Origin: Caldisericota bacterium
Lineage (GTDB): Bacteria > Caldisericota > JANLFM01
Assembly (NCBI GenBank): GCA_024655865.1
Contig: JANLFM010000002.1
Location: forward strand, 21,647 to 74,404
Direction: 5' to 3'
Length of the DNA stretch: 52,758 nucleotides
Shown here in pieces: positions 6,310 to 39,269 of this stretch (the stretch's first letter is position 1; the number at the start of each line of letters is the position of its first letter). A model generated the notes under the pieces. The model saw only the letters and a list, made by a program, of their open reading frames with translations. It was not told where the DNA came from and did not search any database. A program made the translations under genes and the position numbers.

Positions 6310-8054
6310 GGAGTCACCCCTTTCGAGGAGAAGAAGGTAGCGAGAAGCTCGTGTGCGAATGGGGCAAGGTAGCTCCCGTAAGGAAGCTTTGAGTACTCAT
6401 CCATTATGAGGACAACAATTTGCGGATTCTCCACAGGGGCATAGGCGGCAATCCAGATATCTTGTTTTTCTGAAGTGATCTGTGCCGTTCCCGTTTTTGC
6501 CGCCACAGAAATTCCCTCTAACTTAATTTTCTGAGTGGTGCCCCTTTCCGTGGCCTTCATCATTCCCTCCCTCAGGTAAGAAAGGGTTTCCTGGGAAAGT
6601 GGGATTTGGGCTTTGACAACGCTGGGGATAGTTTTTACGAGAAGGCCATCGTAGGTTCTGATCTCCCTGACGAGGTGGGGAACATAGAGAGTTCCTCCGT
6701 TCGCGATGGCGGCATAAACGTTAGCCAAACCCAGAGGGGTAACCAGGACATCGCCCTGCCCTATGCCTATATTGGCGGTGTCTCCAGGGTACCAGGACTC
6801 TCCTGTAACTTTTTCCTTCCATTCTGGATCCGGAATCAGGCCTTTGGCTTCTTCGGGTAAGTCTACCCCCGTGTAACCATCGAGATTAAAGATTCTGGCC
6901 CACTTGGCTATCCTTTCAGGCCCCACTTCTAAAGCCAGAGTGTAAAAGAAGACGTTGCAGGAGTTGGCGATAGCCTCAATTAAATCCTGTTCCCCATGAC
7001 CGGATGTCTGCCAGCAATAAAATCTCCTGTCACCTATGTCTTTATAGCCCGGGCAGACCACTTTAAAAGTCTTAGGATCAATGACCTTTTCTTCCAGAGC
7101 GGAAATGGTTGTGATCACCTTGAAAGTGGAGCCCGGGGGAAACCTATCCTGGGTGGCCTTGGGAATGAAGGCCTGGGCTTTCAGCAGCGCATCGTACTCT
7201 TTTAAAGAAATGCCCTTCACGAAGAGGTTAGGATCATAGTCGGGAGTAGAAGCCATAGCGAGGATTTCTCCATTTCTGGGGTCCAGGCAAACCACCGCTC
7301 CGTTCATTTTATTATCCACCAGGATCTGGCGCGCCTTCTCCTGAAGTTTCAAATCTAAGGAGAGAATCAGGTCGTTTCCCGGCTGGGGTTCGATCTCGTG
7401 AAGGACCTTGATGGGCTGACCAAGGGCGTTAACCTCAATAACCTGCTTTCCCTTTTGTCCCTTGAGATAATCTTCGTAAGATTTCTCCAATCCTGTCTTG
7501 CCAATCGTGTCCCCCCCTGTATAACCCTTTTCGCCTAAAGAAGCCAGTTCCTCTCTGGAAATTTCCCCTACATAGCCAATGATGTGGGAAAAGAGGTTAC
7601 TGAAGGGATAGCTCCTCTTAGGTTCGATCTGCAGAACCACTCCTGGCAATTTGAGATGCTGTTCCTCAATTTTCTGTGCTACATCTTCGCCCAACCCGGA
7701 GCGCAGCGTGAAGGGCTCCCAGGGAGGGAGATCATTTTCCTCGAGCTTGGCCTGGATTTCCTCTACGGGCATGGAGAGGATGGAGGACAGAACGGGAATG
7801 GCCTCCTCTTTGAGATCATCAGGAACAATTTTTATGGCATAAGTGGGCTGATCCTTGGCGAGACAAACACCATTGCGGTCATAAATACTGCCCCTTACGG
7901 CAGGTGTGGATACCAGGCGTGTTCTGTTTTGTTCGGACTGCACTCGAAATTCTTCCCCGTGCACGATCTGCAGGTAGAACAACCTTCCCCAGATGATGGA
8001 GAGCACAAAGAAACAAAGAAGCGCGAAAGCCAGGAGGCGCTTATCCAGCTTCAT
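6306..8054 (-). CDS. mrdA: Penicillin-binding protein 2 (class B transpeptidase)
   Basis: A 582-residue bitopic membrane protein that cross-links peptidoglycan in the elongation machinery. One N-terminal anchor helix (about residues 8-28) is followed by the PBP dimerisation domain and the transpeptidase domain. The catalytic motifs are all visible: STFK (the active serine, in PPGSTFKV), SCN (the SxN box, in ANSCNVFF) and KTGTAQ (the KTG box). I chose ATG 8054 (MKLDKRLL), which overlaps the mreD stop as TGATG; the frame is open for 14 more codons upstream but these lie within mreD. RodA, its glycosyltransferase partner, follows with a 4-base overlap. Confidence 0.93.
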   Translation of the reverse strand: MKLDKRLLAFALLCFFVLSIIWGRLFYLQIVHGEEFRVQSEQNRTRLVSTPAVRGSIYDRNGVCLAKDQPTYAIKIVPDDLKEEAIPVLSSILSMPVEEIQAKLEENDLPPWEPFTLRSGLGEDVAQKIEEQHLKLPGVVLQIEPKRSYPFSNLFSHIIGYVGEISREELASLGEKGYTGGDTIGKTGLEKSYEDYLKGQKGKQVIEVNALGQPIKVLHEIEPQPGNDLILSLDLKLQEKARQILVDNKMNGAVVCLDPRNGEILAMASTPDYDPNLFVKGISLKEYDALLKAQAFIPKATQDRFPPGSTFKVITTISALEEKVIDPKTFKVVCPGYKDIGDRRFYCWQTSGHGEQDLIEAIANSCNVFFYTLALEVGPERIAKWARIFNLDGYTGVDLPEEAKGLIPDPEWKEKVTGESWYPGDTANIGIGQGDVLVTPLGLANVYAAIANGGTLYVPHLVREIRTYDGLLVKTIPSVVKAQIPLSQETLSYLREGMMKATERGTTQKIKLEGISVAAKTGTAQITSEKQDIWIAAYAPVENPQIVVLIMDEYSKLPYGSYLAPFAHELLATFFSSKGVTP

Positions 8055-35334: not shown

Positions 35335-35496
35335 TTATGCATCCTGAATATTTGCTTTAAGGCTTTCTACGATCCTGCTCAACTCCACGATTACCTCGGA
35401 AAGATTCTCCAGCTTGCTTTCCACTCGAAATAAAAGATAGGCGGAAACCACAATCGGGAATCCGAAGTTTGCCACCAGACGCAAGAAATCCTCCAA
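35335..35496 (-). CDS. YvrJ-family small membrane protein (holin-like)
   Basis: A 53-residue protein with one hydrophobic helix (LRLVANFGFPIVVSAYLLF, residues 5-23) followed by a coiled-coil-like amphipathic tail rich in E, K and L. This is the pattern of the YvrJ family and also of BhlA/UviB-type holin-like peptides. The start is TTG 35496, 8 bases after a GGAGGTGA Shine-Dalgarno that overlaps the amidase stop codon. The role is unknown. It is the last gene of a DUF1659-DUF2922-amidase-YvrJ unit. Confidence 0.78.
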   Translation of the reverse strand: MEDFLRLVANFGFPIVVSAYLLFRVESKLENLSEVIVELSRIVESLKANIQDA

Positions 35497-35501
35497 AATT
35501 C

Positions 35502-36245
35502 TCACCTCCTCCCTTCTTCCTGGATGTAATTTACAAGCCGCATGAACAAAATCGCGGCTTCACCTCGAGTAAGCGGCTTTTCCGGATGAAAGGTTCCGTC
35601 TGGATACCCCTTTATCAGTCCCATCTTGGCTAATCGCACCAGAGCATCTTTCACTTCCCCGGAGGAGACATCCCAAAAAGGCAGGTTAAGTGAAAAAAAC
35701 TTCCTCAATCCTTTAACTATAGCCAGTGAAGCGTTTTCCAGAAACTTTGGATTTAAGAGGAGCCGAGCTTCCTCCGGGTCGGATATGAAAAGAAGTTCAA
35801 TTACCACCGCCGGACCGGGAAACTCGCGTAAAATTCCCATTCCTCCCTTCCATCCGGGATCCGAGGGAGGAAACCATTGATCGTCTGATTTTATCCCCCT
35901 CATCTTTAAGGGAAGCTCGGACAGGAAACCCTGGAGGGAAAGGGCAAGCTCCTTCCCTCCTTCGCTTCCTGTCCGGTACCAGATCTCGCAACCTCTCGCT
36001 CCTTGAGGACCGGCATTCAAATGAAGGCTGAGGAGAACCTGACACTCGTTTTCCTGAGCCTCCCTGGCTCTCTGGGAGGATAAAAGCTCGCGATCTGGAA
36101 AGAAGACCTGGAAATCAGGCACCAGTTTTTCCTTGATTAGTTCTCTTAAGACGGACACGGCCTGGGCCTCGGAAAGTAAGAGTTCCAGGTTCACTGCACC
36201 GGGGTCTCCATCTCTACCATGCCCCGCATCAATCGCAATCTTCAA
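35502..36245 (-). CDS. N-acetylmuramoyl-L-alanine amidase with a single SLH domain
   Basis: A 247-residue protein. The N-terminal zinc amidase (Amidase_3, residues 1-180) has IDAGHGRDGDPG, SLHLNA and VIELLFISDPEEA, the conserved His/Glu zinc and catalytic residues. The C-terminus (about 190-247) is one SLH domain (IKGYPDGTFHPEKPLTRGEA). No signal peptide is visible; the start MKIAIDAGHG leaves none, which is odd for a wall enzyme and fits a holin-dependent or otherwise non-Sec route. TTG 36245 follows GGAGG by 5 bases. Confidence 0.87.
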   Translation of the reverse strand: MKIAIDAGHGRDGDPGAVNLELLLSEAQAVSVLRELIKEKLVPDFQVFFPDRELLSSQRAREAQENECQVLLSLHLNAGPQGARGCEIWYRTGSEGGKELALSLQGFLSELPLKMRGIKSDDQWFPPSDPGWKGGMGILREFPGPAVVIELLFISDPEEARLLLNPKFLENASLAIVKGLRKFFSLNLPFWDVSSGEVKDALVRLAKMGLIKGYPDGTFHPEKPLTRGEAAILFMRLVNYIQEEGRR

Positions 36246-36266
36246 GATCTCCTCCTTTCTCTGTCA

Positions 36267-36289
36267 GGGGCGGGGGAGTACCCCGCCCC
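36267..36289 (-). repeat. Strong GC hairpin in the mRNA between DUF2922 and the amidase
   Basis: GGGGCGGGG (36267-36275) and CCCCGCCCC (36281-36289) form a perfect 9-bp stem with a 5-base loop. No U-run follows on the minus strand, so it is not a standard terminator. It may protect or process the upstream mRNA, or lower amidase translation. Confidence 0.6.
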
Positions 36290-36299
36290 GAATCAACTT

Positions 36300-36530
36300 T
36301 TATGGCACTAAGTCCTGGACGTTGCGGTTCACGATCTGAGCATCAACGATGCCCATCAGTCTGCCGCCGGGAGCCTGGAAGACGTCCCGGGTGATGATGT
36401 TGGTCATCACCTGGGTAACCTCCTCCTGAGTCACGTTATCGCGAGGGTTGTTGATCGTGATGATGAAATTTCTGGAGGGGTCCTCCGTTGAGAAAATCAT
36501 CCTCAGGGTCTGTCGAACGGAATCCGCCAA
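36300..36530 (-). CDS. DUF2922-family small protein
   Basis: A 76-residue protein resembling the DUF2922 family: LRMIFSTEDPSRNFIITINN, then VTQEEVTQVMTNII, and a C-terminal half ending IVNRNVQDLV. Predicted mostly beta-strand with one helix. Function unknown; DUF1659/DUF2922 pairs are conserved in Bacillota. TTG 36530 lies 8 bases after AAGGAGG. Confidence 0.82.
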   Translation of the reverse strand: MADSVRQTLRMIFSTEDPSRNFIITINNPRDNVTQEEVTQVMTNIITRDVFQAPGGRLMGIVDAQIVNRNVQDLVP

Positions 36531-36568
36531 TTAAATCACCTCCTTCCATCAAATTTTCACTGAGCTAC

Positions 36569-36796
36569 TTACATCGAGAGGAGTTCGGAGCGATCGACCT
36601 TTTCCACGGAATAAAGTGGAAGTTCCATCAGTCCCGCCAGGTCCTGGGCGGTTGCGTAAAGGTTGTCAAGTGTAGCGTCGGGGCGGACGTTGTTAAAGCT
36701 AACGGTTCTCAGGATAGGCCTTCCGGTCTGCTCGTTAGTGCCCGCATTTAGCCTCAGGGTAAGCCTGGAAGGATATGGGTTAGCATTAATCGGCAT
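36569..36796 (-). CDS. DUF1659-family small protein
   Basis: A 75-residue protein of the DUF1659 type: LTLRLNAGTNEQTGRPILRT, TVSFNNV, then a helix DNLYATAQDLAGLM. Function unknown. It is the first gene of the operon; ATG 36796 follows AAGGAGGTGA closely, a consensus site pointing to high expression. It has the same strand-helix plan as DUF2922, so the two may be related. Confidence 0.82.
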   Translation of the reverse strand: MPINANPYPSRLTLRLNAGTNEQTGRPILRTVSFNNVRPDATLDNLYATAQDLAGLMELPLYSVEKVDRSELLSM

Positions 36797-36817
36797 CTTT
36801 TCACCTCCTTTCCTGGA

Positions 36818-36864
36818 AGCGGCGGAGAAACAAAAACAGCGGCATCAGGTTTCTCCGCCGCTGT
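36818..36864 (-). promoter_or_regulatory. Competing hairpins in the DUF1659 leader (possible attenuator)
   Basis: In the minus-strand leader, ACAGCGGC (36864-36857) can pair with GCCGCTGT (36843-36836), followed by TTTTT, like a terminator. The overlapping AGCGGCGGAGAAAC (36862-36849) can instead pair perfectly over 14 bp with GTTTCTCCGCCGCT (36831-36818), a non-terminator hairpin. The two share the AGCGGC strand and so exclude each other. Confidence 0.6.
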
Positions 36865-36868
36865 CCCT

Positions 36869-36892
36869 AAAATGCAATTGCAATTGCATTTT
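36869..36892. promoter_or_regulatory. Perfect 24-bp palindrome, candidate repressor operator
   Basis: The stretch from 36869 to 36892 equals its own reverse complement (core TTGCAATTGCAA). It covers the -10 region and start site of the minus-strand promoter and lies in the gap shared with the divergent XRE repressor gene, so binding would block the DUF1659 operon. Confidence 0.7.
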
Positions 36893-36917
36893 TAGCATAT
36901 AAAGAAGGGAATGTCAA
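36889..36917 (-). promoter_or_regulatory. Promoter of the DUF1659-DUF2922-amidase-YvrJ operon
   Basis: TTGACA (36917-36912), a 17-base spacer and TAAAAA (36894-36889, followed by T). The start would be near 36882, inside the palindrome. Confidence 0.7.
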
Positions 36918-36992
36918 GGGGTTTTCGAAAAAATTTTTCCAGGGTTTTCCAGGCCCTTGTATAATTAGTATATAATATATTCGCATATATTA

Positions 36993-37020
36993 TTGACTTT
37001 TTGGAAATATTCTGTATAAT
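36993..37020 (+). promoter_or_regulatory. Promoter of the XRE/ImmA-like unit
   Basis: TTGACT (36993-36998), a 16-base spacer and TATAAT (37015-37020). The Shine-Dalgarno region GGAGTTGAGG precedes GTG 37044. Confidence 0.75.
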
Positions 37021-37043
37021 ACTAAAAGAGAGGAGTTGAGGAA

Positions 37044-37457
37044 GTGGCACTGGCGCGGGATAAAATTCGGGAGATCAGGTTAAGTAAAGGTCTTTCGCAG
37101 GGTCAGCTGGCGCACCTTCTGGGATATACGCCCTCCACTGTCTCCCGCATCGAACAAGGGGCACTGAAGCCCTCCTTAAAGTTCCTCCAGAAGTTCGCTG
37201 AGGCCTTTGGGCTTTCCCTCTCATACCTGATCGACCCTGCTGAACCAATTTACCTTGATGACAAAGAGGAAGTTGATCTCAACAGGCTTGAGCCGGGGTT
37301 GAGGGACCTTGCTCTTGATAGTGAACTCAGGCGCCTGTTCGGTGTCCAGGACGAGGATATCAAGCGCCTGGCAACCGTCAGGTTCAGGGCGGGAGCCGTA
37401 GACAAGCAGGGCTATCTCAGTTTGCTCCTTTTTCTGCGCAATTTAGACCGAAGGTAA
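37044..37457 (+). CDS. XRE-family transcriptional repressor
   Basis: A 137-residue regulator with an N-terminal helix-turn-helix of the phage-repressor type (IREIRLSKGLSQGQLAHLLG and TPSTVSRIEQG, residues 8-45) and a C-terminal half that is probably for oligomerisation or protease recognition. It starts at GTG 37044. The next gene, an ImmA/IrrE-type protein, begins immediately after its stop. Such pairs act as a repressor and an anti-repressor protease (ImmR/ImmA of ICEBs1). Its likely target is the 24-bp palindrome across the intergenic gap. Confidence 0.88.
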   Translation: MALARDKIREIRLSKGLSQGQLAHLLGYTPSTVSRIEQGALKPSLKFLQKFAEAFGLSLSYLIDPAEPIYLDDKEEVDLNRLEPGLRDLALDSELRRLFGVQDEDIKRLATVRFRAGAVDKQGYLSLLLFLRNLDRR

Positions 37458-38123
37458 ATGGGTGCCCTGGAACAGGTTATTCTTGACACTTTAGCTCAAG
37501 CCGGGATTTACGGGCCGCCAGTAAACATAGAAAAGGTTTTGAAGGTCCTGGGCCTAGATGACATATTTATCGATTATTCCAAACCCCCAATGGGGGGAAC
37601 TTCGCTTTTCTTCGACGACCTTAAAAGGAAGTGGCGGATTCGGCTTTTACCTTCTCTTCCCCCTGAAAGGCGGACTTTTGATCTGGCTCATGAGTGCGTG
37701 GAGTACCTGGCCCTGAGGGAGGAATTCAAGGGCCCTCACTATCAGATCAATGAGGGCGCGGCTGAACTGCTTATACCGAGGAAATGGGCGGAAGAATGCA
37801 TCCGAAAGAACGGGCTGGACCTTTTTGCCTTAAAGCGCTTGTTTTCCACAGCTTCATTTGATACCTGCGCATTGAGGCTTCTGCGCCTTTCGCCCTGGCC
37901 CTGTACCCTCGTTGTTGTCACGGAAAATGAAAAGCGGGTGATGGGGAGGAAGAAAAAGGCTGGCCTTTCTCCTGATGAGGAGGTTTTCGTGAACAGGGCT
38001 TTCCGGACACTGACCCCGCTTCTTACATCCAAGGGCAGAAAGTTGCTCAGGTCTTTTCCCATTCCTGACGAGAAAAGGCTTAAGATTAAAAAGGCTTATA
38101 TTTATGTCTGGGATCGCATTTAG
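37458..38123 (+). CDS. ImmA/IrrE-type protein with an altered zinc motif
   Basis: A 221-residue protein with the ImmA/IrrE (DUF955) arrangement: RTFDLAHECVEYLA followed by EGAAELLIPRKW. The canonical HExxH reads H78-E79-C-V-E82, with Glu in place of the second zinc histidine. Activity may be lost or use a different ligand set (His94 lies near). In relatives this protease cleaves the adjacent XRE repressor when a signal is sensed. The C-terminal 100 residues are specific to this branch. The start ATG directly follows the XRE stop. Confidence 0.78.
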   Translation: MGALEQVILDTLAQAGIYGPPVNIEKVLKVLGLDDIFIDYSKPPMGGTSLFFDDLKRKWRIRLLPSLPPERRTFDLAHECVEYLALREEFKGPHYQINEGAAELLIPRKWAEECIRKNGLDLFALKRLFSTASFDTCALRLLRLSPWPCTLVVVTENEKRVMGRKKKAGLSPDEEVFVNRAFRTLTPLLTSKGRKLLRSFPIPDEKRLKIKKAYIYVWDRI

Positions 38124-38132
38124 GAGGGGATT

Positions 38133-38360
38133 CTGGAGTACCTTACCGCACAACAATTAGCGATTCGCTGGAATGCTCCCTTGAGGGCCGTTTACGGCAT
38201 CGCTCTGGGTAAACACCGCTTTTCCTCTCTTACCGGTCCCTTAAATATTTACCAAAGGGACAAACGAACAATGTTTTCCCTGGAGGAGGTCATGGAATGG
38301 GAGAAGAAATTGGCCCGGTCAAAGATTCCCCTGGAACTCATAATCAACGAATTCAAATAA
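38133..38360 (+). CDS. Small HTH/excisionase-like protein with a probable CTG start
   Basis: A 75-codon open frame follows the ImmA stop codon. The only well-placed start is CTG 38133, 5 bases after a perfect AGGAGG (38122-38127); the first in-frame ATG lies much further in. The translated protein has YLTAQQLAIRWNAP (like the YLTAKEVA helix-turn-helix opening of AlpA/excisionase proteins) and FSLEEVMEWEKKL (like the recognition-wing RREDVEAWEK ending). It looks like a MerR/HTH_17-type DNA-binding protein, perhaps regulating the same intergenic region. Confidence 0.55.
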   Translation: MEYLTAQQLAIRWNAPLRAVYGIALGKHRFSSLTGPLNIYQRDKRTMFSLEEVMEWEKKLARSKIPLELIINEFK

Positions 38361-38467: not shown

Positions 38468-38525
38468 GAGGGAAGTAAAATTTTTTTAAAAATTTTAACT
38501 TCCTGGCTGGAGCTTGAATAAAAGG

Positions 38526-39269
38526 ATGGAAGCAAGAATTTTGAAATTAACCCCCTCTCTGGTTGATATTTTTGAGTCCTGCCCCAGAAGGTACTGGTAT
38601 ATTTATGAGCCGGATTCTCCTCATGTGGAAAAAAGGGTCTCCTGGCAGCTTTCTTTCGGCAACTCTCTCCACGATGCCTTAAAGGAAATTTACAATCAGG
38701 GCGGACCTCCCCGAGTTTCCCTGGCTTCCCTTCCCGGGATTCTGGAAAAGGTATGGCGCAACGAAGGATATCCCGACGGGGAGCTTGAAAAGGAGAAGAA
38801 AACTTTGGGCCTGGAAATTTTAGAAAGGTACCTGGAAGAGAACCGTTTTCGCTCAGTTTGGACCATTGAGCTGGAAAAACAGTTTACGGCAACCATGGAA
38901 GGCGTTACCCTTTCTGCCCGGGTGGACCGTTTGGATTTGCTCAAGCCTGGACTTTTGATCGTGGACTACAAAACTGGACAGGGGACCTTGAGCGAAAACC
39001 AACTTTACATTTCCTACCTCGTGGTGAGAGCTAACTATCGTTCAAATCAGGACAGGCCGATACGTTTTCTGCTTTTGAACCTGGAGCGTCAGGAAGAACG
39101 GCTGATCGATGTTGAGGAGGAAAAGGCTCTTTCTCAAATTTATTACTACCGTGAGATCAAGGATCAAATTATAAGAAGGGAATTTCCGCCCAATCCTTCT
39201 CTTCCAACCTGTAGATATTGCGAGGCAGTAAAAATCTGCCCTTATGCGCGACAATGGGAAAGGGAGTGA
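38526..39269 (+). CDS. PD-(D/E)XK nuclease with a Cas4/AddB-like Fe-S cluster motif
   Basis: A 247-residue RecB-family nuclease domain. A first cysteine in ESCPRRYWY, then GNSLHDALKEI, ARVDRLDLL and LIVDYKTGQGT (motifs II and III, catalytic D and DxK), and a C-terminal trio in TCRYCEAVKICPY give the 4-Cys iron-sulfur pattern seen in AddB, Cas4 and Dna2. Such proteins are 5'-3' or 3'-5' exonucleases. No CRISPR or recombination partner is in the window. The start is uncertain: ATG 38526 or TTG 38514, neither with a well-spaced Shine-Dalgarno. It could belong to housekeeping repair or an undescribed defence unit. Confidence 0.82.
   Translation: MEARILKLTPSLVDIFESCPRRYWYIYEPDSPHVEKRVSWQLSFGNSLHDALKEIYNQGGPPRVSLASLPGILEKVWRNEGYPDGELEKEKKTLGLEILERYLEENRFRSVWTIELEKQFTATMEGVTLSARVDRLDLLKPGLLIVDYKTGQGTLSENQLYISYLVVRANYRSNQDRPIRFLLLNLERQEERLIDVEEEKALSQIYYYREIKDQIIRREFPPNPSLPTCRYCEAVKICPYARQWERE

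Follow-up and report, generated by a model that had tools for sequence, protein, structure and literature searches.

What use would a bacterial chromosome have for a peptidoglycan amidase that lacks a signal peptide, shares an operon with a holin-like peptide and two small proteins of the families DUF1659 and DUF2922, and is faced by a phage-type repressor with an IrrE/ImmA-like partner? The question is raised by positions 35335 to 38360 of a 52,758-nucleotide stretch of DNA, referred to below as the window, from a Caldisericota bacterium (contig JANLFM010000002.1 of assembly GCA_024655865.1, positions 21,647 to 74,404) whose genome is available as a fragmented assembly of 1.82 Mb. As the leading, still tentative answer we propose a chromosomal cassette that opens the wall or serves release and is under the control of a switch. 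This reading rests on the conserved layout of the locus, a palindrome overlapping the −10 box predicted for the operon, a hydrolase without signal peptide, a holin-family peptide and a widely conserved core.

Genes and control region of the locus

Scans for open reading frames and against Pfam confirmed in full the seven-gene locus described in a first-pass annotation of this DNA, including an amidase without signal peptide but with an SLH domain. The minus-strand operon opens with a DUF1659 protein of 75 amino acids (36569..36796; PF07872, 5.6e-23) and a DUF2922 protein of 76 amino acids (36300..36530; PF11148, 1.1e-20), neither of which has a signal peptide on inspection of the sequences. 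These are followed by an N-acetylmuramoyl-L-alanine amidase with a TTG start (35502..36245), composed of an Amidase_3 domain (PF01520, 6.1e-23) and one C-terminal SLH domain (PF00395, 3.4e-10). Its N-terminus reads MKIAIDAGHG, so the catalytic domain opens the protein directly and leaves no place for a signal peptide. The amidase matches PHROG endolysins (8.8e-30) and the solved amidase 4rn7 (7.9e-12) with the active-site motifs kept. The last gene encodes YvrJ (35335..35505; PF12841, 2.3e-16), a peptide of about 53-56 amino acids with one N-terminal hydrophobic segment, whose match to the phage holin family phrog_4898 (1.3e-7) agrees with its earlier description as holin-like and makes it a candidate holin. 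By linkage to a dedicated regulator, by its holin-family membrane protein and by a peptidoglycan hydrolase of the same operon that lacks a signal peptide, the locus resembles holin-endolysin release cassettes.

On the opposing plus strand lie an XRE repressor-like protein of 137 amino acids, resembling CapH and ImmR (37044..37457; HTH_3, 4.4e-17), an IrrE/ImmA/CapP-like protein of 221 amino acids (37458..38123; Peptidase_M78, 6.4e-6), whose gene adjoins that of XRE with no base between stop codon and start, and a small HTH-like protein of about 75 amino acids (38133..38360). The last probably starts at CTG 38133, because the aligned open reading frame of the sister species begins with GTG at the corresponding position; it gave no match in Pfam, PHROG, NCBIfam or PADLOC. 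An HTH_3 repressor adjoined by an M78 protein is the arrangement of the pairs ImmR-ImmA, CapH-CapP and DdrO-IrrE, and PADLOC matched the XRE protein to capH (5.9e-10) and its partner to capP (1.7e-6). Judged by its sequence, the partner nevertheless fails as a member of the ImmA/CapP protease class on the metal-binding motif, as HECVE stands where HExxH is expected, both in the window species and in its sister species. Signalling through classical proteolysis by the ImmA-like protein is therefore doubtful.

The sister species is represented by a congeneric genome (G001, locus L037, phylum Caldisericota) in which gene content, order and orientation are unchanged, the block comprising histidine kinase, YvrJ, amidase, DUF2922 and DUF1659 and, facing them, XRE, ImmA-like protein, small HTH protein, PD-(D/E)XK nuclease and LamB. 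Amino acid identity between the two genomes is 89% for DUF2922, 85% for YvrJ, 82% for XRE, 81% for DUF1659, 76% for the small HTH protein, 64% for the amidase and 52% for the ImmA-like protein. Nonsynonymous divergence (dN) of 0.07-0.37 against synonymous divergence (dS) above 1 or saturated indicates that all genes of the block are maintained by purifying selection. Since the layout is kept in G001 and DUF1659, DUF2922 and YvrJ adjoin one another in many independent loci, the locus reflects more than chance.

The first-pass annotation had further held that the repressor keeps the operon off, and the control region does look repressed. A perfect 24-bp palindrome, AAAATGCAATTGCAATTGCATTTT (36869..36892), identical in G001, overlaps the −10 box predicted for the DUF1659 operon, the promoter being assigned by consensus match (36888..36917, minus strand; TTGACA at 36917, 18 nt, AAAAAT ending at 36888). 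The 16-bp core of the palindrome occurs as a single exact copy in each of the two genomes, and shuffles of the window gave an expectation of 0 chance matches for the 20-bp core. As the proposed operator, the palindrome is where the operon repressor should bind, and the XRE protein is the candidate for binding it. The predicted promoter of XRE itself (36993..37020, plus strand; TTGACT, 16 nt, TATAAT; 11/12 consensus matches) is about 100 bp away.

The leader RNA of the operon (36797..36870, minus strand) may add a second layer of control. It can form a terminator-like stem (36864-36857/36843-36836) followed by a T-run or, alternatively, a 13-bp hairpin (36861-36849/36831-36819) that shares bases with that stem, so the two are mutually exclusive; folding z-scores were −2.7 and −3.8, and no match was found in Rfam. 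Because G001 has the same competing stems but a different loop, attenuation is possible, if unproven. A separate 9-bp GC-rich hairpin (GGGGCGGGG/CCCCGCCCC) was observed at 36267-36289, between the DUF2922 and amidase genes, and perhaps keeps expression of the amidase below that of the DUF pair.

In a sibling Caldisericota family (f2; genomes G007 and G009) the module faces an HTH_3 plus Peptidase_S24 repressor of the LexA/CI type, so that within one phylum the same module is guarded by two types of repressor. No clear palindrome was seen between the S24 repressor and the module in this family. At locus L116, the intergenic region beside the HTH-S24 repressor (7031-7160) contains repeated ATTATATCAA-like motifs in both orientations, which are possible operator sites, and no long palindrome. 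The SLH domain is retained in several Caldisericota amidases belonging to two unrelated folds.

The DUF1659-DUF2922-YvrJ core in other genomes

DUF2922 loci were collected from Caldisericota genomes, a scan of named genomes, plasmids and 80 regions, the best-scoring hits, from a sample of 250 genomes of the phylum of Clostridium magnum. Annotation with home-made profiles and removal of near-duplicates left 151 loci, 132 of which had enough flank for counts within 2 kb and 108 full flanks for comparison with the interval at 3-5 kb. Kinship among the loci was roughly removed and the 80 regions are the best-scoring ones, so the p-values given below serve only as guides.

DUF1659 was found within 2 kb of DUF2922 in 127/132 loci (96%) and YvrJ in 93/132 (70%), and both adjoined DUF2922 in 80 of the 108 full-flank loci. 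The window locus conforms to this pattern, with DUF1659 just upstream of DUF2922 and YvrJ nearby on the same strand. Peptidoglycan hydrolases were enriched near DUF2922, being present within 2 kb in 43/132 loci (33%) versus 6/108 (6%) at 3-5 kb, with Fisher's test at 1e-7 and p=6e-6 for a paired test confined to the 108 loci. The same comparison gave 32/132 (24%) versus 1/108 for ComK homologues (paired p=2e-8) and 20/132 (15%) versus 1/108 for small sigma-70 factors (paired p=6e-5). XRE genes were found within 2 kb at 5 loci, both in the set of 132 and in that of 108, and at 3-5 kb at 4 of the 108 (paired p=1.0), and a general linkage of XRE to the module was accordingly rejected. The association with an XRE/ImmA pair is confined to the genus, other lineages using ComK homologues or sigma factors. 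These counts define DUF1659-DUF2922-YvrJ as the core, the hydrolase as a frequent accessory and XRE/ImmA as lineage-specific.

DUF2922 is carried by 136 of the 250 genomes sampled from the phylum of Clostridium magnum and occurs also on plasmids. DUF1659 is present as well in Caldisericota, Synergistales, Atribacteria and Thermotoga maritima, lineages that are not known to sporulate. A control search of Bacillus subtilis gave no hit to DUF1659 or DUF2922. Two genomes (G054 and G212) hold seven and eight DUF2922 copies, respectively, suggesting mobility or diversification, and replication initiator-like proteins, noticed by eye beside modules at Clostridial and Atribacterial loci (L102, L103, L077, L089 and L097), hint at carriage by mobile elements.

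The place near the core is taken by hydrolases with unrelated folds, which are in this sense interchangeable: Amidase_3 in the window and on a Peribacillus plasmid, Amidase_2 in most other Caldisericota and in Clostridia, M15_3 in Alkaliphilus, Atribacteria and Acetobacterium, and M15_4/VanY on Geobacillus-type plasmids. All 57 listed hydrolase open reading frames are co-oriented with the module, and in no case is the N-terminus strongly hydrophobic, which is the endolysin pattern. An Acetobacterium locus contains, in addition, a Phage_holin_4_1 gene.

The regulators are interchangeable too, as seen by gene linkage, and comprise XRE/ImmA, S24, ComK and sigma-70 types. Plasmid ComK was recognized by Pfam (3.1e-6), whereas the Clostridial homologues fall mostly below Pfam detection and were linked to ComK by phmmer (best 2.6e-14) and by profile comparison (hhalign 99.4%, E 3e-21, 142 columns). 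Such distant homologues lie directly downstream of DUF1659-DUF2922-YvrJ at L064, L197, L232 and about 30 other Clostridial loci. The module-linked sigma factors contain regions 2 and 4, which in Atribacteria are split into two proteins; at L042 and L063 the assignment comes from a home-made profile, with no Pfam sigma hit. Neither a ComK homologue nor a sigma factor is found among the window genes at the locus. Well-studied members of the CI-like, S24, ComK and dedicated sigma regulators can give all-or-none switching, and the regulators of this module may be expected to do so as well.

AlphaFold2 models of DUF1659 (pLDDT, the predicted local distance difference test, 83) and DUF2922 (pLDDT 80) show the same beta-beta-alpha-beta topology (E-E-H-E). 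Comparison of the two family profiles was merely suggestive (hhalign E 0.009, probability 4%), so that the common topology rests on the models, from which an old duplication yielding a paired assembly is plausible. No significant relatives of solved structure were found by sequence or fold; the best Foldseek matches, to phage p56 (E 0.34) and an arginine decarboxylase (E 0.04), were discarded.

Proposed mechanism and competing explanations

In the proposed cassette, XRE would bind the palindrome and hold the operon off until a stress signal, sensed via the ImmA/CapP-like partner, perhaps by binding instead of cleavage, turned it on. DUF1659 and DUF2922 would then build up as a pair, and YvrJ would permeabilise the inner membrane and let the amidase escape; held in place by its SLH domain, the amidase would cut peptidoglycan. 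The outcome would be cell lysis, possibly, or a local opening, through either of which the DUF1659/DUF2922 assembly would be released.

Several points weigh against this scheme. Wall cutting may be accessory, since two thirds of the DUF2922 loci lack a peptidoglycan hydrolase within 2 kb; the metal motif of the ImmA-like protein is degenerate; the models of the DUF pair match no solved fold significantly; and yvrJ of B. subtilis, transcribed by the two-subunit sigma factor SigO-RsoA, has no reported role in lysis (PMC8103513). Moreover, we infer from sequence the YvrJ lesions, the exit of DUF1659/DUF2922 and the binding of XRE to the palindrome.

A broader proposition, possible though more speculative, is that DUF1659-DUF2922-YvrJ is a non-phage, horizontally reused cellular device, in which a paralogous beta-beta-alpha-beta pair would assemble inside the cell and be delivered by a holin-like peptide and an interchangeable hydrolase. 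Lineages would have placed it independently under bistable-type switches (CI/ImmA-like, LexA/CI-like S24, ComK, split or small sigma factors), firing would be limited to a subpopulation, and the Clostridial ComK homologues would be dedicated to it.

The linkage of ComK homologues, in or beside the operon, and of small sigma-70 factors could instead reflect the competence state of the cell, the module being an accessory of DNA uptake in which DUF1659, DUF2922 and YvrJ would make up an envelope device and the hydrolase would open the wall locally for DNA entry. We consider this unlikely: no com genes were noticed beside the modules, though no systematic search for them was made, the ComK homologues may control this module alone, and in the window lineage ComK and sigma factors are both missing from the locus. 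Non-lytic envelope remodelling, in which the DUF pair would be structural or chaperone-like, YvrJ a membrane anchor and the SLH amidase a trimmer of the wall under stress, is an improbable alternative as well. It would accommodate both the many cores devoid of a hydrolase and the SLH domains kept on amidases of two folds, but the hydrolase could then get out only through a holin-like protein or by lysis, and simple remodelling is not usually governed by regulators of the bistable type.

Still less probable is programmed suicide in defence or DNA damage, with the CapH/CapP-like pair sensing damage or infection and triggering lysis. PprI and CapP cleave their repressors on binding single-stranded DNA, CapP acting on CapH (PMC10904395), and the PADLOC matches of the window pair, together with the S24 repressor of the sibling family, fit such a scheme. 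HECVE in place of HExxH speaks against it, the ComK and sigma versions of the module do not point to a damage trigger, and none of the four operon proteins has a PADLOC match.

The first-pass annotation had proposed a domesticated prophage lysis cassette, which we now regard as quite improbable. In its favour are the holin and endolysin family matches, the phage-type repressor opposite the operon, the S24 repressor in the sibling family and the resemblance of DUF2922 to phrog_21372, a phage family of unassigned function (5.3e-9), by which occasional carriage in phages is possible. Against it, a tblastn search of 50,697 phage genomes with four different DUF2922 queries stayed empty at E values up to 1, and a pattern scan of 2.9 million viral contigs of IMG/VR gave no confirmed match; since no part of a wide DUF2922 alignment was conserved enough to serve as a pattern, the scan relied on four aligned sequences with a consensus-like one at their head. 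The flanks, moreover, are chromosomal (histidine kinase, PD-(D/E)XK nuclease and LamB-type metabolic genes) and keep their synteny in the sister species, neither an integrase nor a phage structural gene lies beside the block, and over half of the sampled genomes of the Clostridium magnum phylum carry DUF2922. The core is thus not simply or ordinarily a domesticated phage cassette. What stands of the earlier reading are its parts, the repression and the likeness to holin and endolysin, to which the S24 repressor of the sibling family adds; the phage origin and the general XRE/ImmA link do not. A sporulation-linked module, for example for mother-cell lysis, is very improbable: a passage in PMC2955703 associates DUF1659 statistically with endospore formers, yet the family also occurs in the other lineages named above.

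Relation to known release systems

By comparison with known systems, the wall-opening or release cassette is best read as working like the sigma factor-holin-endolysin-cargo systems (UviA/UviB/Bcn5, TcdR/TcdE and type 10 secretion). In Bcn5 loci, cargo that lacks a signal peptide is always flanked by the combination of a sigma factor, a BhlA holin and an amidase (PMC9527704). The UviA-UviB-amidase-Bcn5 and TcdR/TcdE loci resemble the module in uniting in one cluster a regulator, a small holin-like peptide, an amidase lacking a signal peptide and cargo candidates. Their UviA/TcdR-type sigma regulators are paralleled by the sigma-70 factors of many DUF2922 loci, whereas the window has XRE/ImmA; their cargo is a bacteriocin or toxin, whereas the candidate cargo here is a pair of DUF proteins of about 75 amino acids; and the holin of Bcn5 loci is BhlA instead of YvrJ. 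Type 10 secretion, known from ChiWXYZ, Salmonella and Yersinia entomophaga, likewise employs a phage-type holin and a peptidoglycan hydrolase in the service of the host, the hydrolase ChiX being required for secretion, and lysis of a subpopulation has been published for it (PMC10847048). The window module differs in that YvrJ is a single-helix peptide, and its secretion is putative.

On the regulatory side, ImmR-ImmA, CapH-CapP and DdrO-IrrE also place an HTH_3 repressor directly before an M78-type protein and divergent from the target operon. Their targets, however, are integrative and conjugative elements (ICE), genes of the anti-phage system CBASS or DNA-repair genes, whereas in the window HExxH is lost and the target is a putative wall-opening module. 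The yvrJ gene of B. subtilis under SigO-RsoA offers a further case of a YvrJ gene under a dedicated, unusual regulator, but no amidase has been reported with it. ComK homologues lie next to the module on Geobacillus-type plasmids and in Clostridia; the window locus has none.

DUF2922 has scarcely been treated in the literature despite its frequency, and the passages retrieved by full-text search from the few papers that mention DUF1659, DUF2922 or YvrJ report no tested function for DUF1659 or DUF2922. The DUF pair gains a testable function from its link to holin-like peptides, wall hydrolases and four unrelated regulators of the switch type, and Clostridial ComK homologues attached to the module bear on the evolution of competence regulation. 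Our analysis points to a wall-opening or protein-release device that is widespread, tightly controlled and so far overlooked, and that is absent from the phages searched.

Two further observations concern the window genome. Four additional DUF1659 copies were found in its assembly on contigs of 7-9 kb (C42, C39, C35 and C34; L033-L036), DUF2922 and an amidase being visible on some, together with an extra unrecognised protein of 113 amino acids (MAKVYAPLMSIDASG...). Some of them adjoin transposase or restriction-type genes, and some may be foreign or contaminating, since the composition of C35 and C34 differs from that of the window. Directly downstream of the XRE/ImmA genes, at 38514-39269, the window encodes a Cas4-like PD-(D/E)XK nuclease (PADLOC 7.8e-12) that is conserved in the sister species.

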